In this document: positions 6,305 to 64,000 of the stretch, in pieces
How positions within the stretch are numbered: the stretch's first letter is position 1
Layout: each line of letters begins with the position of its first letter
Assembly (NCBI GenBank): GCA_904420555.1
Contig: CAJFVO010000002.1
Location: 124,001 to 188,000, forward strand
From: Candidatus Heritagella intestinalis
GTDB lineage: Bacteria > Bacillota > Clostridia > Oscillospirales > Acutalibacteraceae
Length of the DNA stretch: 64,000 bases
Reading direction: 5' to 3'
The notes under the pieces: generated by a model
What the model was told of the DNA's origin: nothing
The model's input: only the letters and a program-made list of their open reading frames with translations
The model's database searches: none
Translations under genes and position numbers: made by a program

Positions 6305-7750
6305 TCAACCTGTAGGGACTGCTTCCAGGGCGGCGGCCTGGCGGGCCTTGGCGGTCTCTAAGTCGTCGAAGTCCCCTAAATCTGCAATGTCCACCGAGGA
6401 AGCGTCAATATAGAGGTCGGGGTTTTCGCTCTGGCCCCGGATGGTGGAGGGCACTTCCCCGTTGAGCTGGGCCCGGGCGCTCTGGGCCCGAAGCTGGCAG
6501 ATTTCTTCCAGGGTCTCCACCCCCAGCTGGTGGGATTCATAGGTGCAGAAGGCCGTGGGGTCCTGTTTCACATAGGGGGCGATCATTTGGGCGGTCTGGC
6601 GCAGCCGCACCTGGAATTCCCCGCTTTCAAAATAGCCGGAGAGCAGGGCGTCAAAATATTCGTGGTACTGGCGGAAATAGGCGTTTTGCTGCATGAGGGT
6701 GTGGTACAGGGGCCGGTTTAACATGACTTCCCCTTCCGCCGGGGTGTCGATGGGGTAGTTGATGAGCACGTTGGGGTCCCGGATGGGGTCGGTCATGCCC
6801 AGGGCGTAGGTGCCGAAGGCCAGGTTGTAGTCCCAGGGCAGAATCTGCAGCACCCCGTCCTCCTCATAGAGGAAGTAGTTGTGGCCTGTGGGGCCCAGAT
6901 AGCTGTCCCAGTTCATGACGAACACCTGCACGGTGAAATACCGCAGCACCTCGTCCACGTCAATGGCGCTTTCCAGGTTCTCCCCGGTGGAGAGGGTTTT
7001 CAAGGCCCCGATAAGCCGCTCCTGGTCCGTCTGGGAGGTCTTGAATTTGGCGTTGCGGAAGATGTTGTCGTAGCTCTGGGGGTCGTCGTCCACATACCGC
7101 AGGGCCACATCGGCGTTTTCGTCGTTGAGGGAGCGGTAGTCGGGCTTATACAGCTCCCCGTAATTGCTGCCGAAGTTCCGCTTGGCAAAGGATTCCTCGG
7201 GCTCCTCCACCGCCAGGAACAGCCCCCAGGGAGCGCCGTTGACGGTGACCCACACATAGCTGCACAGGGGCGTGGGCACCCCCATGTAGTCCATCATGTC
7301 GTAGACCAGCCAGGTTTTCAGATAGCTGTTGTCCTGGAAGGAGGAATCCAGAGACAGCTTATCCAGGCCGTAGTAGGTGTTCCCCCCGGTGTAGTGGTCG
7401 AATTCCAGCTTGAGGCTGTAGCGGGAGAGGCCGTATTCGTGGGTCAGCCGCCGGGAGTTGTTCCCCTTGGCCCGCAGCCCCACCTGCCGGAATTCCTCCC
7501 CGTCCACCACCACGGTGCAGGGGATGTACTCCTCCTCCGGGGCCTTTTCCTGGAGAAAAGCTTCCCAGTCCTCCACCTGGAGGTCAATGGTGTGAACCCG
7601 GCTGCCGTCAAAGAGCCGGGTGGCGTAGGCCGGGGAAGCGCTGGCTTTTTGAAGGCCCAGGCTCTCCCCGCAGAAGAGCAGTGCGGTGAGCCCCATGGCC
7701 AGCACCAGAGCGATGATGCAGATTTTGTCGATATGTTTGTGCCCAAGCAT
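6305..7750 (-). CDS. CotH-family extracytoplasmic kinase
   Basis: A 481-residue protein with an N-terminal membrane anchor (about 8-28) and a CotH kinase-like fold outside the membrane. Family landmarks are GLRAKGNNS (91-99), a conserved LDSSFQDNSYLKTWLVYD region, and the putative catalytic/metal block NWD (280-282), HNYFLY (290-295), PWDYN (305-309). In Bacillus, CotH phosphorylates Ser residues of spore-coat proteins. The ATG lies four bases after the DUF4956 stop, so translation is probably coupled. It is last in the run lipoprotein, VTC polymerase, DUF4956, CotH. VTC-DUF4956-CotH neighbourhoods are common in clostridia. The substrate is unknown; Ser/Asp-rich surface proteins nearby are candidates. 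Confidence 0.88.
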   Translation of the reverse strand: MLGHKHIDKICIIALVLAMGLTALLFCGESLGLQKASASPAYATRLFDGSRVHTIDLQVEDWEAFLQEKAPEEEYIPCTVVVDGEEFRQVGLRAKGNNSRRLTHEYGLSRYSLKLEFDHYTGGNTYYGLDKLSLDSSFQDNSYLKTWLVYDMMDYMGVPTPLCSYVWVTVNGAPWGLFLAVEEPEESFAKRNFGSNYGELYKPDYRSLNDENADVALRYVDDDPQSYDNIFRNAKFKTSQTDQERLIGALKTLSTGENLESAIDVDEVLRYFTVQVFVMNWDSYLGPTGHNYFLYEEDGVLQILPWDYNLAFGTYALGMTDPIRDPNVLINYPIDTPAEGEVMLNRPLYHTLMQQNAYFRQYHEYFDALLSGYFESGEFQVRLRQTAQMIAPYVKQDPTAFCTYESHQLGVETLEEICQLRAQSARAQLNGEVPSTIRGQSENPDLYIDASSVDIADLGDFDDLETAKARQAAALEAVPTG

Positions 7751-7754
7751 TGGT

Positions 7755-8429
7755 TTACCCCATGTAGTCCCCGTTGTAGGACACCAGCGTCACATGGCTC
7801 ACCCCGGGGATTTGGTCCAGGCCGTTGACAAAGCTGCTGTCGTCTTCTTTGAGCCGCACCTCATAGTGCAGTTCGATGCATCCCGGCTCCACGCTCTTGC
7901 TCTTCAGGTTCATGCGCTTTACCCGGGCCGAGACAAATTCCTTTATATCCTTTTCCGCCTGCTCCCCCTCGCAGTGGACCACCAGGATATAGGGGGAATC
8001 CACGGTTTTGCTCCGGGAGAAGAACCACAAAACCAGGCCGATAAAGGCGCTGCCGAATACCGCCAGGGGAATGAGCCCCGCCGCCAGCACAATGCCCACG
8101 GCAATGCTCCAGAACAGGAAGGCGATGTCCATGGGCTCCTTAATGGCGGTGCGGAACCGGACAATGGACAGGGCGCCCACCATGCCCAGAGACAGCACCA
8201 CGTTGCTCACCACGGTCAGTATCAGCAGGGTGGTGATGAGGGACAGGGCAATGAGGGTGACGCCAAAGCTGCGGGAATACATAATGCCCGTGTAGCTCTT
8301 TTTATAGATGAAAAAGATAAACAGCCCCAGCAGAAAGGCCAGCGCCAGGGCAATGGCCATATCCAGCATGGAGATGCTGGTGAGGTTCTCCAAAAAGCTG
8401 GACTTGAAAATATCCTGGAATGTGGTCAT
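7755..8429 (-). CDS. DUF4956 membrane protein
   Basis: A 224-residue protein. About four hydrophobic helices occupy residues 20-140, including the conserved block VLSLGMVGALSIVRFRTAIK. A soluble C-terminal domain of about 80 residues ends in YNGDYMG. The family has no known activity but is almost always beside VTC-domain and CotH genes, as here. AAGGAGAG precedes the ATG. It starts 35 bases after the VTC stop and ends four bases before cotH, so it is in one operon with both. A membrane partner of the polyphosphate polymerase is a reasonable guess. Confidence 0.88.
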   Translation of the reverse strand: MTTFQDIFKSSFLENLTSISMLDMAIALALAFLLGLFIFFIYKKSYTGIMYSRSFGVTLIALSLITTLLILTVVSNVVLSLGMVGALSIVRFRTAIKEPMDIAFLFWSIAVGIVLAAGLIPLAVFGSAFIGLVLWFFSRSKTVDSPYILVVHCEGEQAEKDIKEFVSARVKRMNLKSKSVEPGCIELHYEVRLKEDDSSFVNGLDQIPGVSHVTLVSYNGDYMG

Positions 8430-8464: not shown

Positions 8465-9157
8465 TTAGTCAAACCGGCGGCACAGGGCATATTTGGAGCA
8501 GGCCCCCGCCCGGCGGCCCGGCACCTGTACGGCCAAAGCCACTACCTCCGGCAAAAATTCATCGTATTTTACTTCCAGCACTGTTTCCTGCTCCATAGGC
8601 CGGAGCACCTGCTTTCCCGGGGGCAGGAAGGTTTCCGGCCCGCCCCCCCGCAGGGCCCGGTCCAGGGTGACGCGCACGTTCCCCGGGGCGTATAGAAAGG
8701 CTTCCCGGTCATAGCAGACCACAGTTTTGGGGGCCAGACCCCGGCGCAGCTTGGTGTAGAATTCCTGGAGCAGGGGGTTCCCGCTTTCCAGCAGGAAGGC
8801 CCAGTCACCACAAAGGAGCCTTTGGGCCTGCTCCAAGGTCAGCCGGGCGCTGCGCTTGCCGCACAGGCCGTTCATTTTATACTTCTTTTCCAGCCGCAGG
8901 AAGGAAGTGTCCGCCCCGTAATACCGCAGCCGGAACTTCTCCCGCCGGTTGACGCCGTCCAGCTTTTCCCGCAGGGCCGTGTCATAGGGGGTGTCGAAAT
9001 ACAGGCTGGTGACCCGGTAGGAGCCGTCGGGGCCGGCGTGGGGGTCGTGGGGGAATAAGCGCCGCAGTCTTGCGGAAAGCACCAGGTCTTCCCGCAGGTT
9101 GATCTGGTGCTTCCATTCATGGCGCAATTTTGGAGGGGCTGAGGGCTTAGTCGTCAT
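8465..9157 (-). CDS. VTC-domain polyphosphate polymerase
   Basis: About 230 residues, essentially only the VTC catalytic tunnel domain. Basic and acidic tunnel residues known from yeast Vtc4 have counterparts: K16 (EWKHQIN), the RREKFRLRYY block (71-80), LEKKYK (89-94), VRVTLDR (161-167), VLEVKYDE (193-200) and SKYAL near the end. The start overlaps the end of the upstream lipoprotein gene in another frame. Three ATGs (9175, 9166, 9157) arise from the GAT-GAC repeat of that gene; 9157 gives the shortest overlap with its stop. No clear ribosome site exists, so translation probably depends on the upstream gene. The product should make polyphosphate from nucleotide triphosphate at the membrane. 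Confidence 0.88.
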   Translation of the reverse strand: MTTKPSAPPKLRHEWKHQINLREDLVLSARLRRLFPHDPHAGPDGSYRVTSLYFDTPYDTALREKLDGVNRREKFRLRYYGADTSFLRLEKKYKMNGLCGKRSARLTLEQAQRLLCGDWAFLLESGNPLLQEFYTKLRRGLAPKTVVCYDREAFLYAPGNVRVTLDRALRGGGPETFLPPGKQVLRPMEQETVLEVKYDEFLPEVVALAVQVPGRRAGACSKYALCRRFD

Positions 9158-10310
9158 CGTCGTCATCGTCGTCATAGTCGGTATCGCCGCCATCGTCGTA
9201 GTTGGTATCGTTGCCGTAGTGGGTATCGCCGTAATCGGTGTCGTCGTTGTCATAGTCGGTGGTGCCGTTGTCGTCATAGTTGGTGTCGTTGTAGTCGGTG
9301 ACGCCGTCGTTGTTGGGGCCGTAGTCGGTGTCGTTGTAATCCGTCACACCGTCATTGTTGGGGCCATAGTCGGTGTCGTCGTAATCCGTCACACCGTCAT
9401 TGTTGGGGCCATAGTCGGTGTCGTTGTAGTCGGTGACGCCATCGTTGTTGGGGCCGTAGTCGGTGTCGTTGTAATCGGTAACGCCGTCGTTGTTGGGGCC
9501 GTAGTCCGTGTCGTCATAGTCGGTGGTTCCGCCGGTGCTGGGCTTGGAGGAGGGCTTGGTGGTGGGCTTGGGAGTAGCGCTGGACTGATAGTGGCTCCAA
9601 TCGTCGTTGCGGTCATAGTCGGCTTCGGTGATCTTGCCGGTGCGGGCGTCCACTTCTACCTCGTACTCTGCATTGCCAACGTGGATTTCCATCTCATAAA
9701 CGCCGTCGTCCAGCTCGTATTCCCGCTCCACAAAGGTGGCCTCGTCAGCGGAGAGCCCCAGCTGGGAGAGGGCCAGCTCCTTGGCCTTTTCCAGGCCGAT
9801 GTAGCCGTTGCTTTCCAGGTCGCCCTGGTCCACAGTCATGGTGGAGGCGTCCAGCTGGCGGGCCTTCACGGCTTCGCGAACGCTGTCGGCTACCTGCTCT
9901 AAGAAGTCGTCCCCAGGATACTTGGAGCCTTCTTCCAGCATCACCACGATGTTCTTGGTGTGGCCGTCAATTTTCTCATCGAAGTAGCCGCCTTCATAGA
10001 TTTCATCCACCAGGCCGCTGACCACGGTGCGGCAGTCCTGGCCTTCATAGCCTGCGTATCCGCTGACCACGGCCTTGCCGTCGTCGTTGACGCCCTGCAG
10101 GTCCACTACCTGGCCCCGGCTGTCGTAGTCGATTTCGATTTCGGGGTTGACGCTGAGGAGGAGGGTTCCCATGGCGGAGGTCTGGGTGCCGGAAGCGGCT
10201 GCTCCCGCGGAGGTGTTGTCAGCTGCGGAGGTGCATCCTGCCAGGAGGGCGAGACTCAGCACGGCGGCAGCAGCGGTCATCAGCTTGTTCTTCAAAGTCA
10301 GTTTTTTCAT
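9147..10310 (-). CDS. PepSY lipoprotein with RsgI-like region and Asp/Tyr repeats
   Basis: 387 residues. AAAGGAG precedes the ATG. A lipoprotein signal ends in LAGC (Cys26). Residues about 45-100 (LLLSVNPEIEIDYDSRGQVV...) resemble the conserved extracellular segment of RsgI anti-sigma factors. A PepSY-like domain follows at about 175-240 (YIGLEKAKELALSQLGL...). After a Thr/Pro/Ser linker come five 15-residue repeats (TDYNDTDYGPNNDGV type, 263-337), then an irregular Asp/Tyr tail ending in eight Asp. The Asp/Asn/Gly-rich repeats recall calcium-binding repeats of other families; binding is inference. First gene of the operon with VTC, DUF4956 and CotH, preceded by four copies of the motif also found before sigI. 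Confidence 0.85.
   Translation of the reverse strand: MKKLTLKNKLMTAAAAVLSLALLAGCTSAADNTSAGAAASGTQTSAMGTLLLSVNPEIEIDYDSRGQVVDLQGVNDDGKAVVSGYAGYEGQDCRTVVSGLVDEIYEGGYFDEKIDGHTKNIVVMLEEGSKYPGDDFLEQVADSVREAVKARQLDASTMTVDQGDLESNGYIGLEKAKELALSQLGLSADEATFVEREYELDDGVYEMEIHVGNAEYEVEVDARTGKITEADYDRNDDWSHYQSSATPKPTTKPSSKPSTGGTTDYDDTDYGPNNDGVTDYNDTDYGPNNDGVTDYNDTDYGPNNDGVTDYDDTDYGPNNDGVTDYNDTDYGPNNDGVTDYNDTNYDDNGTTDYDNDDTDYGDTHYGNDTNYDDGGDTDYDDDDDDDD
9300..9524 (-). repeat. five in-frame 45-bp coding repeats
   Basis: Encodes five units of the 15-residue TDY(N/D)DTDYGPNNDGV repeat in the lipoprotein. Units differ mostly at synonymous positions, so the repeats are maintained as protein rather than freshly amplified. 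Confidence 0.9.
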
Positions 10311-10373
10311 GGTATTCGTCTCCTTTTTATTGGTTTAGTGGCTTTGGGAAGCCTTGTTTGTTTTCTTGTATAC

Positions 10374-10735
10374 AGGATACGGAAGGCTGTTTTCGAAACC
10401 GGGGTTTGGGAAAAGATTTTTTGTTTTTCTTTTCTTCTCGTTTCCCTTTGCCCGGATGGCCTTTAGCCTTTCCGAACTGTTTGATGATAGGATACGGAGG
10501 GCGGTTTCCAAAACCGGGGTTTGGAAGAAGATTTTTTGTTTTTTCTTTTTCCGTTACCCGGAAGGCTGTGGGCCTTTCCGAATTCCTTGATTACAGAATA
10601 CGGAAGGCGGTTTCCAAAACCGGGGTTGGAAGAAGATTTTTTCTTTTTTCTTTTTCCGTTACCCGGAAGGCTGTGGGCCTTTCCGAATTCCTTGATTACA
10701 GAATACGGAGGGCGGTTTCCAAAACCGGGGTCGGG
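10374..10735 (-). promoter_or_regulatory. four tandem units with SigI-type promoter motifs
   Basis: Four repeated units begin at 10374, 10489, 10595 and 10700 (periods 115, 106, 105). Each holds, on the minus strand, CCCCGGTTT(T/C), exactly 13 bases, then CGTAT(T/C)CT. The elements are at 10374-10404, 10489-10519, 10595-10625 and 10700-10730. The same motif with the same spacing precedes sigI (13165-13195). Units 2 to 4 contain the inverted repeat CGGTTT-CCA-AAACCG across it. From memory, SigI promoters elsewhere have a C-rich -35 and a CGWA -10, which fits. The nearest unit would give the lipoprotein mRNA a leader of about 55 bases. The rest of the gap 10311-10829 is T-rich on the plus strand and holds no gene. 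Confidence 0.65.
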
Positions 10736-10763
10736 AGGAAAAGTTTTTCCAGGCTCAGCCTGG

Positions 10764-10792
10764 TTGCAAAAGCGCCGCTTTCTTGGTATACT
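10764..10792 (+). promoter_or_regulatory. sigma-A promoter of the 10830 lipoprotein gene
   Basis: TTGCAA, 17 bases, TATACT. The -35 overlaps the end of a palindrome CCAGGCTCAGCCTGG (10749-10763), which is also part of the dispersed repeats and might be a binding site. Confidence 0.75.
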
Positions 10793-10829
10793 TTGGATAC
10801 GACGCTTTGCAGAAGAGGAGGAATTCATC

Positions 10830-11375
10830 TTGAAAAAAATCATTTGCGCCCTGGGGCTTCTCATGCTCCTGACCCTTTCCGGATGCCAGAACAGCGGCGG
10901 CGAGACAGCCGGCCAGGAGTTTGAGAGCCTGGGGGCTTCCTTTGAAGACGGCAAAACCGTCACCGTGGACATGAACCGGGAGGAGGTCCTGGAAGAAATG
11001 GGCGGGGAACCTGACGATTGGGTTACGAAGTATGGATTGATTGCCTATTATGGAGCCCAGTCCCCCTATGAGGTGACATCCCTGCAATATGTGGGCCAGG
11101 AGGAGATGCCCTTTTCCACCAGCCTGGGCGTGGATATGGGGGACAGCGCGGACGACATAAAGGAAGCCCTGGGAGAGCCCGCCAGCGAATCGGCGGACCG
11201 GTACTCCTACGGCCTGGAGCGGGGAGAGGACGGATATACCCTGTTCACCGGCACCGAGGAGGAGTTCTACCAGTATGCCAGTGGGGAAGGGGACCCCTAC
11301 AACCTGTACATGGCCAATTTTACTCTGGAGGACGGGAAGGTCACGGAATTTTCCGTTTACGTCCTGCGGGAATAA
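10830..11375 (+). CDS. lipoprotein, unknown function
   Basis: 181 residues, started from TTG at 10830 with GAGGAGG nine bases upstream; the frame is open further upstream only across non-coding repeat DNA. A lipoprotein signal ends in LSGC. The mature part carries two similar segments, VDMNREEVLEEMGGEPDDW and VDMGDSADDIKEALGEPAS, each with the small helix-Gly-x-Pro pattern seen in SmpA/OmlA-like (BamE-fold) domains, which suggests a duplicated domain of that type. It lies opposite to and between rsgI and the repeat lipoprotein, so it may belong to the same envelope system, but it has its own sigma-A promoter. Confidence 0.8.
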   Translation: MKKIICALGLLMLLTLSGCQNSGGETAGQEFESLGASFEDGKTVTVDMNREEVLEEMGGEPDDWVTKYGLIAYYGAQSPYEVTSLQYVGQEEMPFSTSLGVDMGDSADDIKEALGEPASESADRYSYGLERGEDGYTLFTGTEEEFYQYASGEGDPYNLYMANFTLEDGKVTEFSVYVLRE

Positions 11376-11390
11376 TACAGAAAGACATAA

Positions 11391-11427
11391 AAAAGCCCGG
11401 GCTTCCAAAAGAAGCGCCGGGCCTTTT
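11391..11427. terminator. bidirectional terminator between lipoprotein and rsgI
   Basis: AGCCCGGGCTTC, loop, GAAGCGCCGGGC, CTTTTT on the plus strand; on the minus strand it is followed by TTTTTTATG. It serves both convergent genes. Confidence 0.85.
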
Positions 11428-11448
11428 TGCAGCCTTCAGGAGGCAGGC

Positions 11449-12411
11449 TCAATCGTCGTCATCGTCCTCATCCGGCTCGTTTTCATCGTCGCCGTCATCG
11501 TCGTCATCGTCTCCGTCATCGTCATCCCCATAATTGGTGGTGCCGTTGTCGTCATAGTTGGTATCCCCGTTGGTGTTCCCCGAGGGCCGGGAGGAGGCGC
11601 TGCTTTCAGAGGAGGAAGGCCGGGAAGCTGTGCTGGAAGATGCGCTGGAGGAGCCGCCGCCGGTATTGCTGGGCGACCCTTGATCGTCATCGTCCCCGCT
11701 GCTGCCGGGATTCCCACTGGACGCGCTGGAAGACGCCCCACCGGAAGAAGTGCTGGAAGAATCGTCCCCGCTGCTTTCAGAGGAGGAACTGGAGGAGGGC
11801 AGGTAGTCCTCCGGGGAAATCACAATGACGGATTGGGAGCTGTCTTCTTCCTCGGGAAGGGCCCCGTCTACCAGCTCCACTTTGCTGCCCAGATGGTTTT
11901 CCAGCTCTGCCAAAATGGCGTGGACGGTGTTGGCGTTCCAGTCATCGTTGTCGGATTCCGCCGTCAGGCCGATGGAGCCGCCGTCTGTGAGGAAGCCCAT
12001 CTCCATGGCCCGGTCCGCCAGGTCGTCAGAGACCTCTTCCACGCTCTTCCACCGGTACCCGTAGCCGTCAATCAAGTCGTTCCCGTCCTGGTTCAGGCCT
12101 TCCAGGCCGATTACCTGGTTCACCCGGTTGACCTCCATGCGGACCTCCGGGTTAATCTGCATCCGCACGCTGCCCACCGGCAGGAAGAAAAATTCCACGG
12201 AAACCAGCAGCATCAGGCACAGGCAGGCCGCCGCCGCCACCAGAGGCACCATCCTCTGCCGGAGGGTAGGCTGTTTCTTTTCTTCTAAGAGGAGGACGTG
12301 GTCCAAAGTCTGCCCCACCTGATACCCCAGGTTGGCCGCTTTGAGAAAGCGTCCCGCCTCGTCCAGTACCACGGCGTAGCTCAGGCCGCATTCCATTACC
12401 AGATAGCTCAT
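11449..12411 (-). CDS. rsgI: RsgI-family anti-sigma factor
   Basis: 320 residues. The cytoplasmic RsgI N-domain (about 2-45) should bind SigI. One transmembrane helix follows (about 54-77), then the conserved extracellular segment VRMQINPEVRMEVNRVNQVI. The rest is not a carbohydrate-binding module, as in cellulolytic clostridia, but about 130 residues of Ser/Gly/Asp low complexity ending in an acidic tail with TNYDDNGTTNY and long Asp runs. Its start codon overlaps the sigI stop by four bases, typical of sigI-rsgI operons. The acidic Ser-rich tail resembles what CotH-type kinases phosphorylate and shares TNYDDNGTT with the repeat lipoprotein. The signal sensed is unknown. Confidence 0.9.
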   Translation of the reverse strand: MSYLVMECGLSYAVVLDEAGRFLKAANLGYQVGQTLDHVLLLEEKKQPTLRQRMVPLVAAAACLCLMLLVSVEFFFLPVGSVRMQINPEVRMEVNRVNQVIGLEGLNQDGNDLIDGYGYRWKSVEEVSDDLADRAMEMGFLTDGGSIGLTAESDNDDWNANTVHAILAELENHLGSKVELVDGALPEEEDSSQSVIVISPEDYLPSSSSSSESSGDDSSSTSSGGASSSASSGNPGSSGDDDDQGSPSNTGGGSSSASSSTASRPSSSESSASSRPSGNTNGDTNYDDNGTTNYGDDDDGDDDDDDGDDENEPDEDDDDD

Positions 12412-13145
12412 TGGCTCCGTGCTCCTTTCTGGGGGGACATCTGGCGCAGGTGCCCCCGTATGATCTCAAATCCGTTGGTATAGGCCAGCAGCACGGCCAC
12501 CATGTATTTCCGATGGCGCTCCAGGGTTTTCAGCTCTACGCCGGAGCCGGTTGCCAGCCGGGAGAGGGGCAGCTTTTTGCTGGAGAGGAGCTTTTCCAGA
12601 ATTTCCGGGGTTTCCCGGGCATAGGCCAGGGCCCTGTGACAGGCCTCCAGGGTCCGCTTCTGCTTGGGACAGTTGTCCGCGATGTCCGTAAGGGACAGGC
12701 CGAATTCCGAAAGCTGCTCTGCAAAATGGGCGATTTCCGCCTGGGCGGCAGAGCGGCTCTCCCGCTCCTTTACCACATTGCGCTGGTCTTCCAGCCGGTC
12801 TCCCAAGGTGCGGTCATCCTCGTCCTCCCGGTCGGCCCGGTCCAGGGAAATCTGCCCCTGATGGCGCTTTTCCTTCCGGGCATAGTCGATGAGGCGGCTG
12901 CGGATGGTCATGGCGGCAAACTTCAGGAAGGCCCCCCGGGTGCGGTGATACTGCAATACCGCTTCGTGAAAGGCGAACATGGCGATGCTCAGCTCGTCAT
13001 CCTGGCCCTCCTCCGGGAACCGGTGGATAAATTTCGCTGTCTCTGATTTAATAAAGGGAAGGTACTGCCGCACCAGGCGGTCGGCTGCCAAGGTATCTTC
13101 TTTGGCCGCGTATACCTGCGCGACAAGCTCATGTTCCTGCTTCAA
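12408..13145 (-). CDS. sigI: RNA polymerase sigma factor SigI
   Basis: About 245 residues. Region 2 (RQYLPFIKSETAKFIHR..., DDELSIAMFAFHEAVLQYH, FLKFAAMTIRSRLIDYARKE) is clear. The C-terminal half is the SigI-specific domain instead of a normal sigma-70 region 4. The start is uncertain: an upstream GTG at 13181 would lie inside the promoter motif. The TTG at 13145 has AGGGGTG six bases upstream and leaves a leader of about 15 bases after the -10 element at 13165-13172. SigI in Bacillus answers heat or envelope stress and in Clostridium thermocellum extracellular polysaccharides; each partner RsgI holds it at the membrane. Confidence 0.92.
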   Translation of the reverse strand: MKQEHELVAQVYAAKEDTLAADRLVRQYLPFIKSETAKFIHRFPEEGQDDELSIAMFAFHEAVLQYHRTRGAFLKFAAMTIRSRLIDYARKEKRHQGQISLDRADREDEDDRTLGDRLEDQRNVVKERESRSAAQAEIAHFAEQLSEFGLSLTDIADNCPKQKRTLEACHRALAYARETPEILEKLLSSKKLPLSRLATGSGVELKTLERHRKYMVAVLLAYTNGFEIIRGHLRQMSPQKGARSQ

Positions 13146-13164
13146 CAATGACACCCCTGTCTGT

Positions 13165-13195
13165 AGAATACGAATGGGCACGGGAAAAACCGGGG
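13165..13195 (-). promoter_or_regulatory. SigI-type promoter motif before sigI
   Basis: Minus strand: CCCCGGTTTT, 13 bases, CGTATTCT, the same elements and spacing as the four units at 10374-10730. This suggests SigI drives its own operon. Confidence 0.6.
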
Positions 13196-13422
13196 CCGGC
13201 CCGGAAAAAAGTAATTTTTTTAATGGCTTCTGTTTATGCAGGCCTTTTCCGGCGTTTGGAAGTCCAGATAAAGCCTATTATATCAGTTTATCCGCGCATT
13301 GTAAAATCCCCGTCAGCTTTGGGAAAAGCCTATGTAAAATCCAAAGAATTTGCACCTGCCGGAAGGCGCGTTCCCAAAGCCCCCTTTTGCAGGATATTTT
13401 GATAAAATTCATGGAATTCCGG

Positions 13423-63209: not shown

Positions 63210-64000
63210 CTATCCCGCACTTTTTTCTCCTGGGATTTCCCTCTGTGGGCGGCTCATCAGCCAGGTAAAGGGTTTTGAAAAAATAGGAAGCGATAGAAAA
63301 AAGGTCAGAGCCACGGAAATCCCCAGCAAGAGCAAGGTATGGGGAACCGGGACGGATTTCTGCAAAAAGGCCGCCAAGCCCGACTGGGTAAAAATCATCT
63401 GCAAGGGAACGTGCCAAAAGTAAATAGAAAGGGTCCGCTGCCCGATTTTTGAAACCGGGAGCTTCCGGCTGGGAACCAGGGCGAGAAGCGCCAAAGATAC
63501 CAGTGATACCAGGGCATACCAGACCAGGCGATACAGGGCCCCAGCCTCCGGCCAGGGGAGCTTCCGGTATACGCCCGGGGTGGAGAGTACCAGCAGGGGC
63601 TGGAAGTGGCGTTCATACCAGGAGGTTTGGAACCATATAAACAGGGTAAACCCCACCAAAATAGCAACTGCTATCCCCTTCACGGCCCTTCTTTGGAGAC
63701 GGGCCTGGAGCTTCTGGGGGTCTATGTAATAGCCTGCGGCGAAAAAGGGAAAGAACGAAATCATTTTGGATAAACAGAGCCCATTCCCGATCGCCGTCTC
63801 GTAGCCTGCAAAGCAGGATAGCACTATCCCGAAGAAAAGTACCATTCCCATGGATCGATGGCGCAGCCCATACATGAGCACCAGAAATGCCGCCATGACA
63901 AACATATACCACTGGACGTGATAGGTCCCTAAAAACTCCGGTTCCGCCTTCCTGCCATAGAAGAGTTTGAGCAGATACGTGAAAGCGGCCAATATCACAT
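63210..64000 (-). CDS. acyltransferase family 3 membrane protein, C-terminal part
   Basis: About 263 visible residues; the frame continues past the right edge, so the start and the catalytic His of the first helix are missing. Seven or eight helices are visible, with short loops such as FAAGYYIDPQKLQARLQRR and the late motif SIYFWHVPLQMIF, typical of acyltransferase 3 proteins that acylate surface sugars. The end (RPQREIPGEKSAG) is polar. Target unknown. Confidence 0.85.
   Translation of the reverse strand, partial: VILAAFTYLLKLFYGRKAEPEFLGTYHVQWYMFVMAAFLVLMYGLRHRSMGMVLFFGIVLSCFAGYETAIGNGLCLSKMISFFPFFAAGYYIDPQKLQARLQRRAVKGIAVAILVGFTLFIWFQTSWYERHFQPLLVLSTPGVYRKLPWPEAGALYRLVWYALVSLVSLALLALVPSRKLPVSKIGQRTLSIYFWHVPLQMIFTQSGLAAFLQKSVPVPHTLLLLGISVALTFFLSLPIFSKPFTWLMSRPQREIPGEKSAG

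Follow-up and report, generated by a model that had tools for sequence, protein, structure and literature searches.

In a 64,000-nt stretch of the Candidatus Heritagella intestinalis genome (contig CAJFVO010000002.1, positions 124,001 to 188,000; hereafter the window), one promoter-like element occurs at five places on the minus strand, once in front of the sigma factor gene sigI and four times, in a tandem array, in front of a lipoprotein operon. Taken as a whole, the comparisons presented below are best explained by the five elements being SigI-dependent promoters of sigI-rsgI and of the lipoprotein operon, an interpretation in which we have very high confidence. About 80 further gut bacteria, some of them from another phylum, have this circuit of two signals as well. 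We computed the motif, its spacing, its conservation at both places and its absence elsewhere, and we infer SigI as the reader, the start sites, the extent of the operon, control by RsgI and a higher output.

The order of genes on the minus strand is sigI, rsgI, (a divergent plus-strand lipoprotein gene), the tandem array, a gene for an RsgI_M/PepSY lipoprotein, and genes for VTC-domain, DUF4956 and CotH proteins. In the proposed mechanism, free SigI would recognize the −35 element, ACCCCG plus a T- or A-tract, with its C-terminal domain and the −10 element, CGTA, with its N-terminal domain, and transcription would start about 11 bases past the last A of CGTA. SigI would transcribe sigI-rsgI (positive autoregulation) as well as the lipoprotein-VTC-DUF4956-CotH operon, and RsgI would keep it at the membrane until the RsgI ectodomain, with its putative NP autocleavage site, is triggered.

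The element in the genome and its fit to SigI promoters

The pattern CCCCGGTTTY-N13-CGTATYCT matches the window exactly five times, each time on the minus strand; when up to three mismatches are tolerated, the mean is 0.14 matches per shuffled window, and it is very unlikely that the five-site motif arose by chance. The match at 13165..13195 (CCCCGGTTTTTCCCGTGCCCATTCGTATTCT), which is kept in relatives, is the predicted SigI promoter of sigI-rsgI. The other four precede the lipoprotein operon: U4 (10374..10404; CCCCGGTTTCGAAAACAGCCTTCCGTATCCT) is its predicted ancestral promoter, followed in the upstream direction by the second, third and fourth copies, U3 (10489..10519), U2 (10595..10625) and U1 (10700..10730, the farthest upstream). 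An earlier note on this DNA had placed the motif at these five positions, which proved correct to the base, and it was also right that the spacer of the sigI promoter is unlike those of the tandem units. A weak match on the minus strand at 63430-63460 (3 mismatches, 9 bits) is probably due to chance.

Sequence patterns were used for searches of the whole genome (2.2 Mb), and matrix scanning for the related loci described below. The genome-wide search for CCCCGG-N17-CGTAT that the earlier note had proposed yields 7 exact matches, of which 5 are the window sites; these 5 are also the only matches to CCCCGNWWW-N14-CGTA, whose reversed control pattern has 2. With one mismatch, no genome-wide enrichment of CCCCGG-N17-CGTAT was found (56 matches versus 44 for the reversed control), and since such matches are not commoner than those of the control, looser forms of the motif are useless for regulon counting. 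One single-mismatch site (C4:283012) was discarded as it falls within a tilS-like coding frame. Another site, located before an ABC-transporter-like lipoprotein (G000:C12:30716; CCCCGGTTTTTCGCGGAAATTTACGTTT), was rejected as an extra regulon member because the orthologues in the related genomes G002 and G003 keep the adjoining sequence without CCCCGG, while G001 keeps neither. Enrichment before other genes, which the earlier note had expected, was not seen genome-wide, and the predicted SigI regulon in this genome appears to consist of two transcripts only.

The product of sigI (12408..13145, minus strand) is recognized by NCBIfam SigI models (best 168.9 bits) and, over residues 20–233 and both domains, by profile match to PDB 8i24 (SigI6) and 8i23 (SigI1). 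Pfam finds Sigma70_r2 alone; the SigI C-terminal domain is present and there is no sigma region 4. The CG-contacting residues R98, D101 and R104 (SigI6 numbering) are retained in S-R-L-I-D-Y-x-R, and the partly conserved R97 is replaced by S, N or H. The mechanically called open reading frame starts within the promoter, at GTG 13181; the true start codon is most likely TTG 13145, where relatives have ATG in the alignment. The next gene, rsgI (11449..12411, minus strand), specifies a putative membrane anti-sigma factor with an RsgI_M domain (PF23750, 70.8 bits, over the cut-off), an NP site and an acidic C-terminal tail; RsgI_N (PF12791) is weak, with 14.5 bits here and 24.7 in G003 for a cut-off of 25. 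The NP site, also found in the target lipoprotein, is predicted on the basis of PMC12203970 and of a PDB alignment in which cleaved RsgI chains align from P88 of INPEV. In Clostridium thermocellum, autocleavage of the RsgI periplasmic domain is followed by RseP cleavage and ClpXP degradation, which frees SigI.

Published SigI promoters comprise an A-tract, an upstream region of specificity and CGWA. C. thermocellum SigI3 prefers CCCYYAAA with CGWA and binds CGTA, and its own promoter measures 27 nt from the first C to the last A. All five window sites have CGTA and again span 27 nt between the first C and the last A, the same as in the C. thermocellum sigI2 and sigI3 promoters and in agreement with the spacing C-----AAA 13-14(N) CGWA. 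These published elements and spacings bear out the resemblance of the C-rich and CGTA elements to SigI promoters that the earlier note had pointed out. The likeness to the C. thermocellum SigI3-RsgI3 system (PMC4711584, PMC6056542) thus includes a C-triad upstream of a tract, the CGTA −10 element, the 27-nt distance and, as a prediction here, autoregulated sigI-rsgI with a short leader; however, the SigI3 targets are pectin-degrading cellulosome components, whereas here the target is a lipoprotein operon and there is no sign of a cellulosome. The Bacillales SigI consensus, ACCCCC--AA-N15-CGAA (PMC4711584, after Tseng and Shaw), likewise shares the ACCCC and CG.A blocks at a nearly equal distance and autoregulation (predicted here), but has CGAA and AA instead of CGTA and a T-tract. 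If CGWA occupies −14 to −11, sigI transcription would start at about 13158 with a leader of about 13 nt to TTG 13145 (in C. thermocellum, the listed leaders of most sigI genes measure 13–22 nt), and transcription of the lipoprotein operon from U4 at about 10367, with a leader of about 57 nt.

Several observations weigh against the assignment to SigI. Instead of the expected A-tract, the −35 element ends on its 3′ side in a T-tract here and in most relatives: both promoters in the window have TTT, and most promoters of the set TTTT, as against AAA in C. thermocellum. As the sigI promoters of G001–G003 have AAAA, one sigma factor would have to accept both kinds of tract. Because of this replacement we refer to a variant SigI promoter class and not to the C. 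thermocellum class. The sigI copy scores 24.5 bits against the matrix versus 36–42 for the lipoprotein copies, and it is without the conserved A that precedes CCCC. Finally, SigI falls below the NCBI curated equivalog cut-off (165 bits versus 185 for TIGR02895, and similarly for the other SigI models); as the best models are all SigI and yet remain under their cut-offs, the protein is termed a divergent SigI and not an NCBI equivalog.

Conservation in relatives

In six related genomes (three from the same genus, two from the same family and one from another family of the order), the element is found with identical spacing before both sigI and the lipoprotein gene. A scan for related SigI, restricted to one genome per species, provided 80 loci, 67 of which have the lipoprotein gene on the contig; the organisms carry Oscillospirales, Lachnospirales and Christensenellaceae names, to which Olsenella and other Atopobiaceae are added. 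Upstream of sigI, CCCC and CG[TAC]A are separated by 19 bases in 76 of the 80 loci and by 20 bases in 3, compared with none of 80 for the reversed control and 0–4 for other spacings; a search tolerating 18–20 bases detects the element there in 78 of 80. Upstream of the lipoprotein gene, it is present with 19 bases in 63 of the 67 loci, or 65 when L146 and L160 (20 bases) are added. In the remaining cases, L172 for sigI and L138 and L140 for the lipoprotein, a single base of CCCCG is changed; only L150 departs by more. The earlier note had fixed in advance the sigI regions of relatives as a place where a lack of enrichment would speak against it. The enrichment is there, and the autoregulation of SigI which it had predicted is strongly supported by this comparison.

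A matrix was derived from the sites and no match of at least 15 bits was found elsewhere in the related loci (2.16 Mb-strands). Recovery of the sites by the matrix brings no new evidence, because it was built from them; the emptiness elsewhere does. The joint consensus reads ACCCCG-N-TTTT, about 13 poorly conserved bases, CGTA and TCTAT. The sigI sites are mostly CGTATTCTATA; before the lipoprotein gene, most sites read CGTAATCTATG and run into a conserved leader. An A-tract replaces the T-tract in about 28% of the sigI sites (AAAA in the sigI promoters of G001–G003). Two departures from the consensus affect both promoters together: the 20-base spacing in L160 and, mostly, CGCA for CGTA in Atopobiaceae. 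Joint changes of this kind, though they represent few evolutionary events, would be the expected trace of one shared reader.

The element could instead be the binding site of a DNA-binding regulator, since a dimeric protein could contact a pair of short conserved blocks separated by some two turns of the helix. However, the blocks are neither inverted nor direct repeats of each other; one corresponds to the SigI −35 region and the other to CGWA, spaced as in published promoters. Moreover, in nearly all loci 13–60 nt separate the element from the start codons of sigI and of the neighbouring gene, and the element accompanies sigI genes across phyla. A regulator site is for these reasons highly improbable, and we retain SigI-dependent promoters as the explanation.

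The sigI-rsgI-lipoprotein module, mostly with CGCA, was observed in Olsenella, Thermophilibacter and other Atopobiaceae, which belong to another phylum (L119, L130, L133-L135, L137, L139, L145, L147, L152, L153 and L168); this distribution suggests transfer of the module between phyla. The T-tract promoter class and the CGCA class of Atopobiaceae should be useful for understanding how SigI distinguishes promoters.

The tandem array before the lipoprotein gene

Tandem Repeats Finder delimits an array of about 3.5 units with a period of 105 (10371..10749, minus strand), which carries the four promoter copies at steps of 105, 106 and 115 bp. The spacing of the copies is near whole helical turns, which may be an accident. 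Outside the positions named in the motif, identity is 98% (85/87) for U1 and U2, 83% for U2 and U3 and 62% (45/72) for U3 and U4. The position of U4 and the leader that follows it (GTATACA...) resemble those of the single copy in G001–G003; since U4 runs into such a leader, it is taken as the ancestral promoter, from which U1–U3 are most likely duplications. One ancestral promoter and three duplications do not make four independent pieces of evidence, so the motif occurs independently twice within the window and not five times, independent replication being given by the relatives. The earlier note's 'four times before the lipoprotein operon' is correct in that there are four exact copies, but these reflect recent tandem duplication of a single promoter.

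In the scan described above, 66 of the 67 relatives have a single lipoprotein promoter; L158 alone has two. The doubled promoter of L158 (L158:10696-10840), with copies 106 bp apart and unlike in sequence, is apparently of independent origin. A second lipoprotein promoter initially noted in L156 was lost under the matrix.

The lipoprotein-side copies might represent a selfish or structural DNA repeat, only U4 or none of them being a promoter, given that U1–U3 lie in a 105-bp tandem array, share long non-promoter sequence and are absent in relatives. Against this, U4 corresponds to the single promoter that relatives have conserved, and a separate 106-bp duplication exists in L158. In addition, U3 agrees with U4, and also with U2, at 17 of 18 named positions, the difference being the allowed T/C, as compared with 45 of 72 other positions for U3 and U4; promoter letters have outlasted the rest, although firing of U1–U3 is not thereby shown. 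We consider a mere repeat unlikely. The persistence of promoter letters where others have drifted suggests that the copies function, and the duplication probably raises the output of the lipoprotein operon. It is in this sense that the 'strongly amplified target' of the earlier note can be kept: the four copies are real, but the array is not conserved and a stronger output is only predicted.

Another conceivable role of the array is that of an RNA leader or an adjustable copy-number switch, in place of simply adding transcription. Long upstream transcripts would indeed cross the repeats, and units as similar as U1 and U2 are prone to changes in copy number. However, a simple scan detected no sense-strand terminator-like site inside the array, and such a role is about as doubtful as that of a mere repeat; added transcription from duplicated SigI promoters is preferred.

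The predicted target operon, CotH and neighbouring genes

The first gene of the predicted target operon (9147..10310, minus strand) encodes a lipoprotein with RsgI_M (PF23750, 59.9 bits) and PepSY (PF03413, 39.4 bits) domains and a tail of DTDYGPNNDGVTDYN repeats ending in D8; its lipobox, LLAGC, was identified by reading the sequence, and it matches the RsgI structure 8t9n. It would be in effect an RsgI ectodomain in which a lipid anchor replaces the anti-sigma part. The following genes, on the same strand, code for a VTC-domain, polyphosphate polymerase-like protein (8465..9277; PF09359, 105 bits), whose true start is probably downstream of 9277, as this position overlaps the lipoprotein tail, a DUF4956 membrane protein (7755..8429; PF16316, 49.9 bits) and, last in the operon, a CotH kinase-family protein (6305..7750; PF08757, 209 bits), the sole CotH in the genome.

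RsgI and the target lipoprotein both end in similar acidic repeats, in the window as well as in L096-L175. Lipoprotein tails with many [ST]-[DGN]-Y motifs are found in 29 of 29 loci with CotH and in 0 of 16 without (defined as at least 6.5 kb downstream free of CotH), and RsgI tails with such motifs in 27 of 27 and 0 of 16, G054 being an exception outside that set; the threshold was set after viewing the tails, and these counts are descriptive and not a test. Five CotH changes can be placed on the SigI tree, the lipoprotein tail following every time, but no more than two independent pairs sit on well-supported branches. Within the genus of the window, three genomes (86–99% complete) are without any CotH, and the two tails that are readable are without the motif. 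This pattern suggests functional coupling; one recombination inside the lipoprotein gene could also unite tail and CotH, and a better indication comes from the tail of RsgI, which is located separately. Tentatively, CotH (with VTC and DUF4956) might act on both tails, which would explain the shared ectodomain and tail: RsgI, as a copy of the lipoprotein that serves for sampling, would report tail modification or binding and release SigI for more lipoprotein and CotH until the need is met. We regard this scheme as possible, though rather less than probable. A precedent for control of CotH by SigI is cseP, which codes for a CotH-dockerin protein and is a SigI6 target in a heterologous system.

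Similar gene sets have been described. CotH, a polyphosphate polymerase and DUF4956 form a contiguous set among the accessory genes of Gram-positive Pel clusters (PMC7112168), where they stand beside pelDEADAFG; here they are beside sigI-rsgI and the lipoprotein gene (Pel genes were not searched for). As described in PMC2879425, C. perfringens NELoc-2 resembles the present locus in having a sigI-annotated gene followed by genes for a hypothetical surface protein, a VTC-domain protein and CotH, with a tubulin/FtsZ-annotated gene where DUF4956 stands here. Unlike here, VTC and its neighbour are duplicated around a resolvase in NELoc-2, which is part of a larger cluster with a glycosyltransferase. 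Searches of an open-access collection that leaves out most subscription journals found no link of SigI to the lipoprotein-VTC-DUF4956-CotH set. SigI is known mainly from Bacillus heat shock and C. thermocellum cellulosomes, and the circuit would represent a third role, widely conserved in gut bacteria, with a predicted two-transcript regulon that is testable. The CotH-VTC-DUF4956 set would come under a defined regulator and acquire a likely client whose tail type tracks CotH.

A site resembling a sigma-A promoter (TTTACA-17-TATAAT; agreement with the consensus at 11 of 12 positions, and TG ahead of the second hexamer) is located upstream of sigI at 13277..13305 on the minus strand and is possibly a basal sigI promoter. 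A conserved sigma-A promoter before sigI was rejected: a site scoring at least 10 occurs in only 9 of 75 relatives (2.7 in shuffled sequences). Between rsgI and the lipoprotein operon sits the divergent small lipoprotein gene (10830-11375, plus strand; also given as 10764-11375), which has a sigma-A-like TTGCAA-17-TATACT and is without a Pfam match. The genome encodes a third RsgI_M protein, L031 (G000:C8:64424), in which three PepSY-like repeats are visible by eye; its gene lies directly behind that of a sigma factor of the extracytoplasmic function (ECF) type, not a SigI.

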